Positions 19,531 to 28,924 of a stretch of 64,000 nt of DNA are shown here, in pieces. The DNA comes from Balaenoptera acutorostrata (taxonomy: Eukaryota > Chordata > Mammalia > Artiodactyla > Balaenopteridae): assembly GCF_949987535.1 (NCBI RefSeq), contig NC_080080.1:58006668-58070667 (forward strand). Reading direction: 5' to 3'. The position numbers and the translations under genes were made by a program. The notes under the pieces were generated by a model. The model ran no database searches. It saw nothing but the letters and a program-made list of their open reading frames with translations, and had not been told where the DNA came from. Each line of letters opens with the position of its first letter. The stretch's first letter is position 1.

Positions 19531-19837
19531 ATCTTGAATGCCCTACACAGTAGTACCCAATAGTGGGTGCCCAAGTAATACTTTGAAGAAAAGATAGTAA
19601 CTCAAACACGAAGAGAATGTGGATGTATTGAGTCACTGAGGTGCCCTCCATTCTCACTAAGATCTTATTTTCAGGAAATGTTGGAGAAATAGAAAAAGGA
19701 ATTATTGTCACCTGCAGACAAAATAAGCTTATGAAACCAAGAGCTAGTAATATTGAGAGGCAGATAGGCTTGAGATGACTGCTTCTAAACTAAACTAGCC
19801 CTTTGGGGCAGAAATAAGACGTCTAGTTAAGAATAGA

Positions 19838-20292
19838 GTCTGTCATACAGAGTGAAGTAAGTCAGAAAGAGAAAAACAAATACCGTATGCTAACACATAT
19901 ATATGGAATCTAAGAAAAAAAAAAAAAAAGGTCATGAAGAACCTAGGGGTAAGACGGGAATAAAGACACAGACCTACTGGAGAATGGACTTGAGGATATG
20001 CGGAGGGGCAAGGGTAAGCTGTGACAAAGTGAGAGAATGGCATGGACACATATACACTACCAAACGTAAAATAGATAGCTAGTGGGATGCAGCTGCATAG
20101 CACAGGGAGATCAGCTCAGTGCTTTGTGACCACCTAGAGAGGTGGGATAGGGAGGGTGGGAGGGAGGAAGATGCAAGAGGGAAGAGAAATGGGAACATAT
20201 GTATATGTATAACTGATTCACTTTGTTATAAAGCAGAAACTAACACACCATTGTAAAGCAATTATACTCCAATAAAGATGTTAAAAAAAAAA
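19838..20292 (+). mobile_element. 5'-truncated L1 3' end, plus strand
   Basis: Begins in the ORF2 end ('ACAGAGTGAAGTAAGTCAGA'), then 3' UTR ('TAGCACAGGGAGATCAGCTC', 'GTGACCACCTAGAGAGGTGG', 'TGATTCACTTTGTTATAAAG') and closes with AATAAAGATG and A12. It is the same 3' UTR family as the outer L1 at 20714-21420, in opposite orientation and about 350 bp from it. Confidence 0.88.
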
Positions 20293-20642
20293 AAGAATGT
20301 CAATTAGTCTCCTTAAGATGCCAATGGATGCAACAATGTTTTATACACTGAAGCATTTCATAGCTTGGTGTTCAACAGTATTCAGGTTTGTGAAGATGTT
20401 AGTTTCATTAGTAAATATATTTCCTAATGAACTAACACCTGAGAATTAATCCAACTGGGTTTGATTTATTTGCTATAGTTTCCTAAACCATAACAATTGT
20501 CTAGTATAGGTTTTTGATTAGAAAAATTATAGGGTGGGACTCAGAAAATAATTGTAACTTTATCATTCAGCCCAGCCTCTTGATATTTCCTTTCAAAAGA
20601 AAATTCCAAATGACTGGGAGAAAGAAGAAGAAATAGAAAACC
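20293..20642. other. No recognised feature
   Basis: Spacer between the plus-strand L1 end and the nested L1 complex. AT-rich with no supportable feature. Confidence 0.4.
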
Positions 20643-20651
20643 TACATTCAG

Positions 20652-20653
20652 TT

Positions 20654-20713
<60 letters not shown>
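20652..20713 (+). repeat. (TTTC)n microsatellite from an L1 poly(A) tail
   Basis: About 15 units of TTTC, i.e. GAAA on the L1 sense strand, replace the homopolymer tail of the outer L1. The 60-codon KERKKERK-type frame here is only this repeat read in frame. Confidence 0.9.
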
Positions 20714-21456
20714 TATTTAACATCCTTATTGAAGTATAATTGCCTTACAATGGTGTGTTAGCTTCTGCTTTATAACAAAGTGAATCAGTTATACATATAC
20801 AATATGTTCCCATTTCTCTTCCCTCTTGCATCTCCCTCCCTCCCACCCTCCCCATCCCACCCCTCTAGGTGGTCACAAAGCACCGAGCTGATCTCCCTGT
20901 GCTATGCGGCTGCTTCCCACTAGTTATCTATTTTACATTTGGTAGTGTATATATGTCCATGACACTCTCTTACCCTGTCACATCTCACCCCACCCCGTCC
21001 CCATATCCTCAAGTCCATTCTCTAGTAGGTCTGTGTCTTTATTCCCGTCTTGCCACTAGGTTCTTCATGGCCATTTTTTTTTTCCCTTAGATTCCGTATA
21101 TATGTGTTAGCATACTGTATTTGTTTTTCTCTTTCTGACTTACTTCACTCTGTATGACAGACTCTAACTCCATCCACCTCATTACAAATACCTCCATTTC
21201 ATTTCTTTTTATGGCTGAGTAATATTCCATTGTATATATGTGCCACATCTTCTTTATCCATTCATCTGTCGATGGACATTTAGGTTGCTTCCATGTCCTG
21301 GCTATTGTAAATAGAGCTGCAATGAACATTTTGGTACATGACTCTTTTTGACCTATGGTTTTCTCAGGGTATATGCCCAGTAGTGGGATTGCTGGGTCGT
21401 ATGGTAGTTCTATTTGTAGTTTTTTTTTTTTTTTTTTCCACACACACACACTGTAT

Positions 21457-21462
21457 TTTATT
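21457..21462 (-). terminator. AATAAA polyadenylation signal of the extended L1 transcript
   Basis: TTTATT on the plus strand is AATAAA on the L1 strand, 20 nt before the terminal poly(A). This is a textbook spacing and marks where the longer transcript was cleaved. Confidence 0.8.
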
Positions 21463-22110
21463 TTTACAAGAGATAGATAGACTGACACCAAGCATTGTAC
21501 ATGGATGACCACAACAAAAGCAACAATGATTGCAATTACCAAACATGAAACACACTTATACTATGTCATAACATTGACATTCAGTCCAGTAATCCTCCAC
21601 TGTAACAGCTCCTTTACTTTGCAGTGAAAATTGATTTGTATATTCTTTTCCTCTGAGTCCTTGTGGGATTTTTTTTTTTTTAATTCAGACAGAAAGTCAC
21701 AAAAATTATACTCATCCTCATCAGTTCACTCAGTCCCATGTAATTAATTTCTTTTTTTTCATCTTGATCTTTTGTTAGCACTTTTATGAGTTCATCAGTT
21801 TTTCATTAGAGTTCTGAAAATGCTTATTCATTCAGTTCAGCAGTACAGTCAGTTACCAGAAACCTGTACTTGTCAGAGTCTTTTCCATGAATTTCTTGAA
21901 GATGAAACTCTTTTATAGGAACATATTTGCAAAATCATCAGAGTACACCCAGAACTGTCTGTAAATGACAAAAGACTTAAAAATGACCATGGTTAAAGAT
22001 TTGATGAAAGTTCATAATAATGCAGTTGACAAGAAAATTAGTTATTTCTGAGATATACATTTTAAAGTAATAACTAGGATTATTACTTATAACATTATAC
22101 CAGAACATAT

Positions 22111-22584
22111 AAGATTTTTAGACGTTTCCTGTAATGTCTGAAACATTTATATTAACATATTTCCATACATATTTCCATACAAATACAAATATAAGATTTT
22201 TAGAAATTTCATGTAATGTCTGAAACATTTATATTAACATATTTCCATACATATTTCCATACAAATACAAATATAAGATTTTTAGAAATTTCATGTAATG
22301 TCTGAAACATTTATATTAACATATTTCCATACATATTTCCATACAAATACAAATATAAGATTTTTAGAAATTTCATGTAATGTCTGAAACATTTATATTA
22401 ACATATTTCCATACATATTTCCATACAAATACAAATATAAGATTTTTAGAAATTTCATGTACTGTCTGAAACATTTATATTAACATATTTCCATACATAT
22501 TTCCATACAAATACAAATATAAGATTTTTAGAAATTTCATGTAATGTCTGAAACATTTATATTAACATATTTCCATACAAATAA
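22111..22584 (-). repeat. 82-bp tandem repeat, about 5.8 copies
   Basis: Unit starts (AAGATTTTTAGA) fall at 22111, 22193, 22275, 22357, 22439 and 22521, so the period is exactly 82 bp with no indels. The first unit differs slightly (GACGTTTCC for GAAATTTCA) and the fifth has GTACTGTCTG for GTAATGTCTG. Otherwise the units look identical. Each unit holds an inner doublet of TTTCCATACA. The last copy stops at about 22584. Homogeneity implies recent expansion. Confidence 0.95.
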
Positions 22585-22611
22585 CCCAATGAAAGTTTAG
22601 TATTAGTTGTT

Positions 22612-22813
22612 TTGTTTGTTTTTTTATACTGCAGGTTCTTATTAGGCATCAGTTTTATACACATCCGTGTATACATGTCAATCCCAATCGCCCAATTCAG
22701 CACATCACCATCCCCACCTCATCGCAGTTTTCCCCCCTTGGTGTCCATATGTCCATTCTCTACATCTGTGTCTCAACTTCTGCCCTGCAAACTGGCTCAT
22801 CTGTACCATTTTT
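22612..22813 (-). other. 3' UTR of the young L1
   Basis: About 200 bp from the ORF2 stop to the A-rich end (AAAAAAACAAACAAAAC on the L1 strand). The L1's own poly(A) signal appears weak: the L1 strand has AATAAG (plus-strand CTTATT at 22638-22643) and no AATAAA. That would favour read-through into the downstream sequence. Confidence 0.7.
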
Positions 22814-25800
22814 CTACGTTCCACATACATGCATTAACATACGATATTTGTTTTTTTCTTTCTGACTTACTTCACTCTGTATGACAGTCTCTAGATCCAT
22901 CCACTTCTCAACAAATGACTCAATTTCGTTCCTTTTTATGGCTGAATAATATTCCATCGTATATATGTACCACAACTTCTTTATCCATTCGTCTGTTGAT
23001 GGGCATTTAGGTTGCTTCCATGACCTGGCTATTGTAAATAGTGCTGCAATGAACATTCGGGTGCACGTGTCTTTTTGAATTACGGTTTTCTCTGGGTATA
23101 TGCCCAGTAGTGGGATTGCTGGGTCATATGGTAATTCTATTTTTAGTTTTTTAAGGAACCTCCATACTGTTCTCCATAGTGGCTGTATCAATTTACATTC
23201 CCACCAACAGTGCAAGAGGGTTCCCTTTTCTCCACACCCTCTCCAGCATTTGTTGTTTGTAGATTTTCTGATGATGCCCATTCTAACAGGAGTGAGGTGA
23301 TACCTCATTGTAGTTTTGATTTGCATTTCTCTAATAATTAGTGATGTTGAGCATCTTTTCATGTGCTTCGTGGCCGTCTGTATGTCTTCTTTGGAGAAAT
23401 GTCTATTTAGGTCTTCTGCCCATTTTTGGATTGGGGTGTTTGTTTCTTTGATATTGAGCTGAATGAGCTGTTTATATATTTTGGAGATTAATCCTTTGTC
23501 CGTTGATTCATTTGCAAATATTTTCTCCCATTCTGAGGGTTGTCTTTTCGTCTTGTTTATGGTTTCCTTTGCTGTGCAAAAGCTTTGAAGTTTCATTAGG
23601 TCCCACTTGTTTATTTTTGTTTTTATTTCCATTACTCTAGGAGGTGGATCGAAAAAGATCTTGCTGTGATTTATGTCAAAGAGTGTTCTTCCTATGTTTT
23701 CCTCTAAGAGTTTTATAGTGTCCAGTCTTATATTTAGGTCTCTAATCCATTTTGAGTTTATTTTTGTGTATGGTGTTAGGGAGTATTCTAATTTCATTCT
23801 TTTACATGTGGCTGTCCAGTTTTCCCAGCACCACTTATTGAAGAGACTGTCTTTTCTCCATTGTATATCTTTGCCTCCTTTGTCATAGATTAGTTGACCA
23901 TAGGTGCGTGGGTTAATCTCTGGGCTTTCTATCTTGTTCCATTGATCTATGTTTCTGTTTTTGTGCCAGTACCATATTGTCTTGATTACTGTAGCTTTGT
24001 AGTATAGTCTGAAGTCAGGGAGTCTGATTCCTCCAGCTCCATTTTTTTGCCTCAAGACTGCTTTGGCTATTCGGGGTCTTTTGTGTCTCCATACAAATTT
24101 TAAGATGATTTGTTCTAGCTCCGTAAAAAATGCCCTTGGTAATTTGATAGGGATTGCATTGAATCTGTAGATTGCTTTGGGTAGTATACTCATTTTCACA
24201 ATGTTGATTCTTCCAATCCAAGAACATGGTATATCTCTCCATCTGTTGGTATCATCTTTAATTTCTTTCATCAGTGTCTTATAGTTTTCTGCATACAGGT
24301 CTTTTGTCTCCCTAGGTAGGTTTATTCCTAGGTATTTTATTCTTTTTGTTGCAATGGTAAATGGGAGTGTTTCCATAATTTCTCTTTCAGATTTTTCATC
24401 ATTAGTGTATAGGAATGCAAGAGATTTCTGTGCATTAATTTTGTAACCTGCAACTTTACCATATTCATTAATTAGCTCTAGCAGTTTTCTGGTGGCAGTT
24501 TTAGGATTCTCTATGTATAGTATCATGTCATCCGCAAACAGTGACAGTTTTACTTCTTCTTTTCCAATTTGTATTCCTTTTATTTCTTTTTCTTCTCTGA
24601 TTGCCATGGCTAGGACTTCCAGAACTATGTTGAATAATAGTGGTGAGAGTGGACATCCTTGTCTCGTTCCTGATCTTAGAGGAAATGCTTTCAGTTTTTC
24701 ACCATTGAGAATGATGTTTGCTGTGGGTTTGTCATATATGGCCTTTATTATGTTGAGGTAGGTTCCCTCTATGCCCACTTTCTGGAGAGTTTTTATCAGA
24801 AATGGGTGTTGAATTTTGTCAAAAGCTTTTTCTGCATCTATTGAGATGATCATATGGTTTTTCTTCTTCAATTTGTTAATATGGTGTATCACATTGATTG
24901 ATTTGCGTATATTGAAGAATCCTTGCATCCCTGGGATAAATCCCACTTGATCGTGGTGTATGATCCTTTTAATGTGTTGTTGGATTCTGTTTGCTAGTAT
25001 TTTGTTGAGGATTTTTGCATCTATATTCATCAGTGATATTGGTCTGTAATTTTCTTTTTTTGTAGTGTCTTTGTCTGGTTTTGGTATCAGGGTGATGGTG
25101 GCCTCATAGAATGAGTTTGGGAGAGTTCCTTCCTCTGCAATTTTTTGGAAGAGTTTGAGAAGGATGGGTGTTAGCTCTTCTCTAAATGTTTGATAGAATT
25201 CACCTGTGAAGCCATCTGGTCCTGGACTTTTGTTTGTTGGAAGATTTTTAATCACAGTTTCAATTTCATTACTTGTGATTGGTCTGTTGATATTTTCTGT
25301 TTCTTCCTGGTTCAGCCTTGGAAGGTTATACCTTTCTAAGAATTTGTCCATTTCTTCCAGGTTGTCCATTTTATTGGCATAAAGTTGCTTGTAGTAGTCT
25401 CTTAGGATGTTTTGTATTTCTGCGGTGTCTGTTGTAACTTCTCCTTTTTCATTTCTGATTTTATTGATTTGAGTCCTCTCCCTCTTTTTCTTGATGAGTC
25501 TGGCTAATGGCTTATCAATTTTGTTTATCTTCTCAAAGAACCAACTTTTAGTTTTATTGATCTTTGCTATTGTTTTCTTTGTTTCTATTTCATTTATTTC
25601 TGCTCTGATCTTTATGATTTCTTTCCTTCTGCTAACTTTGGGTTTTGTTTGTTCTTCTTTCTCTAGTTTCTTTAGGTGTAAAGTTAGATTGTTTACTTGA
25701 GATTTTTCTTGTTTCTTTAGGTAGGCTTGTATAGCTATAAACTTCCCTCTTAGAACCGTTTTTGCTGCATCCCATAGGTTTTGGGTCGTCGTGTTTTCAT

Positions 25801-26632
25801 TGTCATTTGTCTCTAGGTATTTTTTGATTTCCTGTTTGATTTCTTCAGTGATCTCTTGGTTATTTAGTAACGTATTGTTTAGCCTCCATGTGTTTGTCTT
25901 TTTTACGTTTTTTTCCCTGTAATTCATTTCTAATCTCATAGCGTTGTGGTCAGAAAAGATGCTTGATATGATTTCAATTTTCTTAAATTTACTGAGGCTT
26001 GATTTGTGACCCAAGATGTGATCTATCCTGGAGAATGTTCCGTGTGCACTTGAGAAGAACGTGTAATCTGCCGTTTTTGGATGGAATGTCCTATATATAT
26101 CAATTAAATCTATCTGGTCTATTGTGTCATTTAAAGCTTCTGTTTCCTTATTTATTTTCATTTTGGATGATCTGTCCATTGGTGTAAGTGAGGTGTTAAA
26201 GTCCCCCACTATTATTGTGTTACTGTCGATTTCCTCTTTTATAGCTGTTAGCAGTTGCCTTATGTATTGAGGTGCTCCTATGTTGGGTGCATATATATTT
26301 ATAATTGTTATATCTTCTTCTTGGATTGATCCCTGGATCATTATGTAGTGTCCTTCCTTGTCTCTTGTAACATTCTTTATTTTAAAGTCTATTTTATCTG
26401 ATATGAGTATAGCTACTCCAGCTTTCTTTTGATTTCCATTTGCATGGAATATCTTTTTCCATCCCCTCACTTTCAGTCTGTATGTGTCCCTAGGTCTGAA
26501 GTGGGTCTCTTGTAGACAGCATATATATGGGTCTTGTTTTTGTATCCATTCAGCCAGTCTATGTCTTTTGGTTGGGGCATTTAATCCATTCACGTTTAAG
26601 GTAATTATCGATATGTATGTTCCTATGACCAT
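22814..26632 (-). CDS. L1 ORF2 protein: endonuclease and reverse transcriptase
   Basis: Intact frame of 1272 residues, close to the usual 1275 or so for mammalian L1 ORF2. The N-terminal APE-type endonuclease (about 1-240) shows N15 in TLNVNGLN, E42 in LQETHF, D144 and N146 in VGDFNTSL, D204 in SRIDHILG and H229 in SDHN. The reverse transcriptase (about 450-770) has D599 in [10 protein letters not shown] and the catalytic FADDMILYI with D701/D702. The C-terminal cysteine-rich segment keeps C1129, C1133, H1141 and C1146 (CWRGCG...LLHCWWEC). Its role is target-primed reverse transcription: it nicks TTTT/AA DNA and copies L1 or SINE RNA there. It follows ORF1 by 58 nt, as in bicistronic L1 RNA. 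No frameshift or stop is seen. Activity is inferred from intact motifs, not shown. Confidence 0.95.
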
Positions 26633-26690
26633 TTTCTTAATTGTTTTGGGTTTGTTTTTGTAGGTCCTTTTCTTCTCTTGTGTTTCCCAC

Positions 26691-27596
26691 TTAGAGAAGT
26701 TCCTTTAGCATTTGTTGTAGAGCTGGTTTGGTGGTGCTGAATTCTCTTAGCTTTTGCTTGTCTGTAAAGCTTTTGATTTCTCCATCAAATCTAAATGAGA
26801 TCCTTGCTGGGTAGAGTAATCTTGGTTGTAGGTTCTTCCCTTTCATCACTTTAAGTATTTCATGCCACTCCCTTCTGGCTTGCAGAGTTTCTGCTGAGAA
26901 ATCAGCTGTTAACCTTATGGGGGTTCCCTTGTATGTTATTTGTCGTTTTTCCCTTGCTGCTTTCAATAATTTTTCTTTGTCTTTAATTTTTGCCACTTTG
27001 ATTACTATGTGTCTCGGCGTGTTTCTCCTTGGGTTTATTCTGTATGGGACTCTCTGCGCTTCCTGGACTTGGGTGGCTATTTCCTTTCCCATGTTAGGGA
27101 AGTTTTCGATTATAATCTCTTCAAATATTTTCTCTGGTCCTTTCTCTCTCTCTTCTCCTTCTGGGACCCCTATAATGCGAATGTTGTTGCATTTAATGTT
27201 GTCCCAGAGGTCTCTTAGGCTGTCTTCATTTCTTTTTATTCTTTTTTCTTTAGTCTGTTCCGCAGCAGTGAATTCCACCATTCTGTCTTCCAGGTCACTT
27301 ATCCGTTCTTCTGCCTCAGTTATTCTGCTATTGATTCCTTCTAGTGTAGTTTTCATTTCAGTTATTGTATTGGTCATCTCTGTTTGTTTGTTCTTTAATT
27401 CTTCTAGGTCTTTGTTAATCATTTCTTGCATCTTCTCAATCTTTGCCTCCATTCTTATTCCGAGGTCCTGGATCATCTTCACTATCATTATTCTGAATTC
27501 TTTTTCTGGAAGGTTGCCTATCTCCACTTCATTTAGTTGTTTTTCTGGGGTTTTTTCTTGTTCCTTCATCTGGTACATAGCCCTCTGCCTTTTCAT
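26691..27596 (-). CDS. L1 ORF1 protein: RNA-binding chaperone
   Basis: Intact frame of 301 residues, shorter than human ORF1 (338) mainly at the N-terminus. A coiled-coil region rich in E/K/I heptads spans about 35-125 (trimerisation in the family). An RRM-like domain spans about 125-220 ([37 protein letters not shown]). The C-terminal domain runs from about 221 to 301 ([40 protein letters not shown]). The protein coats L1 RNA and is needed for retrotransposition. The start chosen is the first in-frame Met (MKRQRAMYQ); an earlier start is not evident. It lies 58 nt upstream of ORF2 on the same strand. Confidence 0.93.
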
Positions 27597-28489
27597 CTTC
27601 TCTGTCTTTCTGTAACTGTGGTTTTTGGTCCACAGGCTGCAGGATTGTAGTTTTTCTTGCTTCTGTTGTCTGCCCTCTGGTGGTTGAGGCTATCTAAGAG
27701 GCTTGATGGGAGGCTCTGGTGGTGGGTAGAGCTGACTGTTGCTGTGGCGGTCAGAGCTCAGTAAAACCTTAATCCACTTGACTGTTGATGGGTGGGGCTG
27801 GGTTCCCTCCCTGTTGGTTGTTTTGCCTGAGGCAACCCAACACTGGAGCCTACCCGTGCTCTTTGGTGGGGTTAATGGCAGACTCTGGGAGGGCTCATGC
27901 CAAGGAGAACTTCCCAGGACCTCTGCTGCCAGTGTCCTTATCCCCACGGTGAAACAGAGCCACCACTCGCCTCTGCAGGAGACCCCCCAACACCAGCAGG
28001 TACGTCTGGTTCAGTCTCCCCCAGGGTCACTGCTCCTTCCCCTGGGTCCCGATGCACACATTACTTTGTGTGTGCCCTCCAAGAGTGGGGTCTCTGTTTC
28101 CCCCAGTCCTGTCACAGTCCTGCAATCAATTCCCACTAGACTTCAAAGTCTGATTCTCTAGGAATTCCTCCTCCCTTTGCCGGACCCCCAGGTTGGGAAG
28201 CCTGAGATGGGGCTCAGAACCTTCACTCCAGTGGGTGGACTTCTGTGGTATAAGTGTTCGCCAGTCTGTGAGTCACCCACCCAGCAGTTATGGGATTTGA
28301 TTTTACTCTGATTGCGCCCCTCCTACCGTCTCACTGTGGCTTCTCCTCTGTCCTTGGACGTGGGGTGTCCTCCTTGGTGAAGTCCAGGGTCTTCCTGTCA
28401 ATGATTGTCCAGCAGCCAGTTGTGATTCTGGTGCTCTCGCAAGAGGGAGTGAGAGCACGTCCTTCTACTCCGCCATCTTGGTTAATCTC
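27597..28489 (-). promoter_or_regulatory. L1 5' UTR / internal promoter
   Basis: About 890 bp, more GC-rich than the surroundings, preceding ORF1. In mammalian L1 this region holds the internal RNA polymerase II promoter that lets a full-length copy carry its own promoter. It starts with the YY1-type motif about 11 nt from the element end. An antisense open frame (27739-28161, plus strand) lies within it; see findings. Confidence 0.8.
28473..28479 (-). promoter_or_regulatory. YY1-type site at L1 5' end
   Basis: CCATCTT on the plus strand (AAGATGG, in CAAGATGGCGGAG, on the L1 strand) at about +11 to +17 of the element. In human L1 the site in this position fixes the transcription start at the first nucleotide. 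Its presence supports a complete 5' end. Confidence 0.8.
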
Positions 28490-28924
28490 CTATTTGTAGT
28501 TTTTTAAGGACCCTCCATACTGTTCTCCATAGTGGCTGTATCAATTTACATTCCCACCAACAGTGCAAGAGTGTTCCCTTTCCTCCACACCCTCTCCAGC
28601 ATTTATTGTTTCTAGATTTTTTGATGATGGCCATTCTGACCGGTGTGAGATGATATCTCATTGTAGTTTTGATTTGCATTTCTCTAATGATTAATGATGT
28701 TGAGCCTTCTTTCATGTGCCTGTAGGCCATCTGAATATCTTCTTTGGAGAAATGTCTATTTAGATCTTCTGCCCATTTTTGGATTGGGTTGTTCATTTTT
28801 TTGTTATTGAGCTGCATGAGCTGCTTGTAGATCTTGGGGATTAATCCTTTGTCAGTTGCTTCATTTGCAAATATTTTCTCCCATTCTGAGGGTTGTCTTT
28901 TGGTCTTGTTTACATTCAGTTTCT

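Follow-up and report, generated by a model that had tools for sequence, protein, structure and literature searches.

At one position in the genome of Balaenoptera acutorostrata, an L1 element carries a long additional 3′ segment with a polyadenylation signal and a poly(A) tail of its own. The question that this locus raises is whether the segment was carried along by this particular copy in a 3′ transduction, in which case it could be used to trace the progenitor element, or whether it is a fixed part of the L1 lineage to which the copy belongs. The first-pass annotation of the window (the whole stretch of 64,000 nucleotides that was analyzed) had proposed the former and named the latter as an alternative. 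The insertion lies on the minus strand and occupies 21410-28505 as a single unit, in which the L1 runs from 28489 to 22612, the extra segment (termed EXT; 1174 bp) from 22611 to 21438, and a tail of 18 A residues (T18 on the plus strand) from 21437 to 21420. The unit is enclosed by exact 16-bp target site duplications with the sequence CTATTTGTAGTTTTTT, one at the L1 5′ end (28490-28505) and one on the left (21410-21425); six of the A residues of the tail can be assigned equally well to the duplication. The nick at the left duplication (TTTTTT/AAGG) fits the site preference of the L1 endonuclease. The L1 body (22612-28489), which is full length as judged against other copies, holds two open reading frames on the minus strand, of 301 amino acids (26691-27596) and 1272 amino acids (22814-26632), which we take, by recognition, to be L1 ORF1 and ORF2. 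With an exact 16-bp duplication, a TTTTTT/AA nick, an A18 tail and ORFs of the L1 type, this is a LINE-1 insertion placed by target-primed reverse transcription.

The native part of the 3′ UTR is 202 bp long (22612-22813, minus strand) and offers TATAAA twice and AATAAG; a motif scan found no AATAAA in it. Between L1 and EXT lies an A-rich tract (22606-22628), whose length and sequence vary among old copies and which leaves the exact L1/EXT boundary uncertain by some bases. EXT itself (21438-22611, minus strand) is occupied in large part by a tandem array of 5.8 copies of an 82-bp unit (22107-22579). The sole AATAAA in the native 3′ UTR and EXT together is found at 21462-21457, 19 nt ahead of the tail. 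The anatomy that had been read in the first pass, an L1 with an A-rich native end and an extra segment with AATAAA and poly(A), all inside one exact 16-bp target duplication, was thus confirmed; the tail counts 18 A residues instead of 17.

The target of the insertion was an older L1, also on the minus strand, with its 3′ part at 20708-21425 (identified from the sequence) and its 5′ remainder at 28490-28911 (read by eye). This outer L1 is bounded by its own 13-bp duplication, ACATTCAGTTTCT, at 20644-20656 and 28912-28924 (also by eye), and a (TTTC)n run is located at its expected tail position. It picks up again directly at the right-hand 16-bp duplication and continues beyond both copies of the latter. 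We considered that EXT might be a piece of the outer L1 or of its target DNA, and rejected this possibility because the duplication is exactly where the outer L1 sets in again. Other L1 remnants are present in the window. Two old L1 3′ ends of another type (19834-20293 and 20708-21166) are inverted with respect to each other and 91-96% complementary, and the ORF1 region of an older plus-strand L1 (30765-31496) is 72-81% complementary to the young L1.

The genome from which the window stems (2.77 Gb) was then searched with EXT. The best 40 of 816 first-look candidates all spanned the 1174 bp at about 100% identity. Twenty of the 39 copies other than the window copy were read, and all of them consisted of an L1 3′ end, EXT and an A-tail, with flanks that all differed; their L1 parts were 98.8-99.8% identical to the window L1. 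In a second search the L1 3′ UTR alone served as the query, so that copies were not chosen by EXT. This yielded at least 40 exact 219-bp matches among the best 40 of 183 candidates. Seven of the 40 adjoin EXT matches found with the EXT query, and for 20 of the remaining 33 the junction was fetched: all 20 enter EXT (19 identical and 1 with one mismatch). Six more have an exact EXT tail at a distance of 1012-1179 bp, by which 26 of the 33 are covered. "Every young copy" therefore refers to samples, each genome search having scored its best 40 candidates. A 163-bp query from the EXT tail gave at least 40 exact matches (604 candidates), 27 on C1 and 13 on C2 up to 74 Mb, that is, within about 273 Mb; this suggests roughly 400 exact EXT tails genome-wide, an extrapolation that holds if the matches over this distance are complete and the density is even. 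Two C1 copies that had been found with the full EXT query, with one base changed relative to the window, are missing from these exact matches. In seven of the eight places where a UTR match and a tail match form a pair, EXT measures 1174-1179 bp; in the eighth it measures 1012 bp, as would be expected with two units fewer.

Many of the copies give the impression of being young and intact. Of the 21 copies, window included, 16 begin within L1 positions 1-48, and ORFs of 301 and 1272 amino acids were found in 12 of the 21 (those of copy L016 measure 297 and 1272 amino acids). Compared with their majority sequence, the 16 full-length copies differ by 0.08-0.44% in the L1 body and by 0 to 1 base in EXT; the sample of 21 was picked by EXT identity and hence leans young. 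The lineage is recently active, which is not to say that it is the only active one. A target site duplication was found for 19 of the 21 copies (the exceptions being L015 and L034), so EXT moves with L1. The scan for duplications was run without a shuffled control, and the cases of 9-11 bp (L023, L029 and L030) rest on their place after the A-tail. Of the 16 full-length copies, 14 have a stretch of 75 bp duplicated in tandem within their 5′ UTR; the window copy, where its place would be at about 27736-27816 (L1 positions 675-755), and L032 do not have it.

Older copies also carry EXT. When the L069 copy, which has a variant EXT end, was used as the query, the best 40 of 49 candidates showed 93-100% identity. 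In two of the more diverged copies, L074 and L075, the L1 3′ UTR is followed by the A-rich junction and then by EXT, in which the 82-bp unit occurs once. Compared with the window, EXT is 94.3% identical in L074 (598 bp) and 89.4% identical in L075 (605 bp). The EXT of L075 in turn found 2130 candidates, the best 40 of which were scored; besides L075 itself, 39 matched at 92-93% over all 530 bp. Four of these 39 (L076-L079) were read at the junction, of L1 only the A-rich end being covered, and all four showed the A-rich tract followed by EXT with one unit. In all six older copies read, EXT thus stands behind an A-rich tract and the array is absent. A comparison across about 520 shared sites gave 24 differences private to L075, 7 private to L074 and 15 private to the window copy. 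At a neutral rate of 1-2.2 × 10^-9 per year, L075 would be, as a rough estimate, some 20-45 million years old.

One-unit copies are old, copies with about six units are young, and the junction is the same in both; the array therefore came later than EXT. The presence of the segment at one junction in independent insertions, young and old, leads us to regard EXT as a 3′ UTR extension that is old and has been inherited within a recently active L1 lineage, with a probability of about 0.88. This supports the suggestion that the extension is fixed in an L1 subfamily, and two expressions of the first-pass annotation have to be corrected. The extension is older than "young" implies, its one-unit copies being several per cent diverged, and "non-L1 sequence" gives a wrong impression, as EXT is part of the L1 lineage itself.

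That the segment was transduced recently, in this copy alone or within a small family, from a progenitor that it could help to trace, is extremely improbable on these data. The anatomy in the window, with its duplication, AATAAA and tail, is indeed that of a 3′ transduction; against a private event stand the full-length EXT matches, at least 40 in number, the approximately 400 exact tails reached by extrapolation, and the junction shared by old one-unit copies. We rejected the idea on the grounds of copy number and old copies, EXT not being a single-copy flank. As EXT was present in 20 of 20 other copies and at 20 of 20 junctions chosen by UTR, without exception among the tested copies of the young lineage, it cannot name the parent of the window copy. 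The genome search that had been recommended as a check, carried out in the window's own genome, did find many copies on L1 3′ ends, but not a single-copy source locus.

An inherited segment need not have been acquired at all. This L1 clade could have had EXT as its 3′ UTR from the outset and have lost it wherever it is missing, a view to which the age of EXT and its abundance (the 2130 first-look candidates) lend some weight, as does the length of other artiodactyl L1s, the giraffe consensus being given as 7997 bp in the available text of PMC8620236. However, the window also contains old L1s of another type, with 3′ ends at 20293 and 20708, whose coding region is related to that of the young L1 but whose 3′ UTR is different, with its own polyadenylation signal and without EXT; moreover, the A-rich tract inside the present UTR suggests a former end at that point. 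We therefore consider an original UTR doubtful, and EXT probably began as a 3′ transduction. In that case EXT would have entered the lineage once, when a founder element was read through into its flank, and the A-rich tract at the junction is perhaps the decayed tail of the founder. The founding locus, that is, EXT as plain flank or an L1-EXT without tail, was not found among the best 40 candidates per genome search. With regard to the source of EXT, reading frames of its unique part had no Pfam match, and Rfam at gathering thresholds gave no match within the window. A piece of a coding gene was rejected as the origin, since Pfam gave no match and the sole PDB match was meaningless (E 1.4).

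The sequence beyond EXT indicates that additions have continued. In 11 of the 19 copies with a duplication, the duplication follows directly after the EXT tail. The other eight (L016, L017, L022, L024, L030, L031, L032 and L033) have further 3′ sequence past EXT, and their duplication is located 98-1748 bases from the EXT end, after the extra sequence and a further A-rich stretch. About 1.37 kb of this sequence is common to L016 and L030 (termed T2a), and 230 bp is common to L031 and L033 (termed T2b). Among the best 40 of 47 candidates for a 600-bp T2a query, at least 38 matches extended over 120 bp or more, with 97-100% identity, three shorter matches being left out of this count. Thirteen of them span the whole query; the others stop at several points or start late. 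Judged by the coordinates of the matches listed for EXT, its tail and the UTR, 9 of the 38 directly follow an EXT match, and one other lies 947 bp from an L1 end. At 11 further full T2a matches, seven showed the same T2a end with poly(A) and four showed other sequence at that distance. Several flanks hold additional features. Roughly 0.55 kb downstream of EXT, L017 contains a sequence with a poly(A) tail that looks like a retrocopy of U6 snRNA, and SINE sequence in copy flanks resembles the CHR family, a likeness that would suit a whale or one of its relatives. L032 (6301-9213) shows an L1-EXT, then a truncated L1-EXT and then a third EXT fragment, pieces that may have moved together, with the duplication at +1748; two EXT tails 441 bp apart (C1:100411599 and 100412040) may resemble this case.

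T2b had three full matches among the best 40 of 178 candidates, namely, L033, L031 and C1:43518963-43519192, the rest reaching 68-77%. At the C1 site, the sequence runs on without poly(A), and no L1-EXT stands directly in front of it. The sequence TATTAAGAACACTGG at this locus reads as an unfilled site, from which it would follow that the T2b parent is absent from the assembly. About 150 bp upstream of the empty site stands another full-length L1-EXT, which differs at the EXT end and is flanked by a duplication of its own; C1:43518963-43526490 contains both, a closeness that seems unlikely to be due to chance. An origin of T2b from this nearest L1-EXT (C1 near 43526472) was not supported, given its different EXT end and the fact that T2b does not adjoin it.

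Among the seven copies with the common T2a end, two pairs share new sequence in turn: T3a in the C20 and C13 copies and T3b in the C2 and C1 copies. The 5′ flank of the C20 element ends with AAGAATAGTCTG, which is the start of T3a, before the L1 5′ end, and in the C2 element the start of T3b (AAGAAATAGGTTAGT) is present in the 5′ flank, likewise before the L1 5′ end. Because the starts of T3a and T3b are located in these 5′ flanks, the C20 and C2 elements are the parents, named by their own duplications, and we regard the copies on C13 and C1 as their respective offspring. The 5′ flank of the C1 copy is unrelated; the stretch read for C13 stops short of an L1 5′ end and did not show a duplication of its own. 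For T3a, the two copies are the only full matches among the best 40 of 50 candidates. These loci bear out serial 3′ transduction, of second and third order, in the lineage.

The onward additions also bear on how EXT itself was joined to L1. EXT might have been inherited from a founder that arose by a template switch or by RNA joining with another RNA, and not by read-through. Its 3′ end with AATAAA does resemble that of an mRNA, and L1-RNA chimeras are documented; nevertheless, the chimeras described in the available text of PMC13174262 have the foreign RNA at the L1 5′ side, a transcript that had read through an older tail would be expected to have an A-rich tract between L1 and EXT, as is seen here, and T2b, T3a and T3b derive from the native flanks at sites of insertion. 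We judge such a joining to be unlikely and keep to read-through by a founder as the probable beginning. We infer that cleavage of the L1 RNA takes place at the signal in EXT and not at the native end, where an AATAAA is lacking; EXT would then set the 3′ end of the RNA and be inherited by each new copy. Transcripts that read past the EXT site would carry new flanks, from which the second- and third-order subfamilies have arisen. Whether these steps combine into a stepwise growth of the 3′ UTR, in which a transduced segment became 3′ UTR, its 82-bp unit expanded, and T2a and then T3a or T3b were nested behind it, with weak termination at the new end continuing to seed additions, is a matter on which we see the balance as even. 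If it is true, the turnover of an L1 3′ UTR can be traced step by step in one genome. The way in which L1 lineages exchange their 3′ UTRs generally has to be deduced from end states that lie far apart; this genome contains old copies, the current form and later additions side by side, and parents can be named. There is also a practical side, in that EXT and T2a, unless the right consensus is used, would be mistaken for unique transduced sequence and lead to false parent assignments. A literature search found no account of the extension, which does not show its absence from print, and repeat libraries may already contain EXT because it is old and abundant.

Known systems offer several points of comparison, given here according to the available text of the respective papers. 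A human L1 3′ transduction family of 14 members was described in 2019 as "the largest found to date" (PMC6425141). As in the window, the human families comprise L1, tail, transduced segment and second tail within one duplication, and offspring were traced to parents; in contrast to that family, EXT is old and present in all young copies tested, and T2a alone has at least 38 matches of 120 bp or more, followed by third-order segments. For dog L1, few transductions were mapped (about 1.8% of dimorphic insertions), and about 15% is quoted for full-length human L1 (PMC12458276); sequence beyond EXT was found here in 8 of 19 copies, a small sample that was counted differently. The same study describes "parentless" 3′ transductions in the dog, with a source site that lacks a parent L1 in the assembly, which T2b resembles in that its parent L1 is missing at the source site. 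In L1-RNA chimeras, foreign sequence joins L1, which the authors propose as a driver of 5′ UTR exchange (PMC13174262), whereas the change described here is at the 3′ end and is inherited by a whole lineage. L1 3′ transduction is thus a known kind of event, and it is the depth and scale that are unusual in this lineage: a segment became its own 3′ UTR, additions are nested to the third order, and T2a is found in dozens of places.
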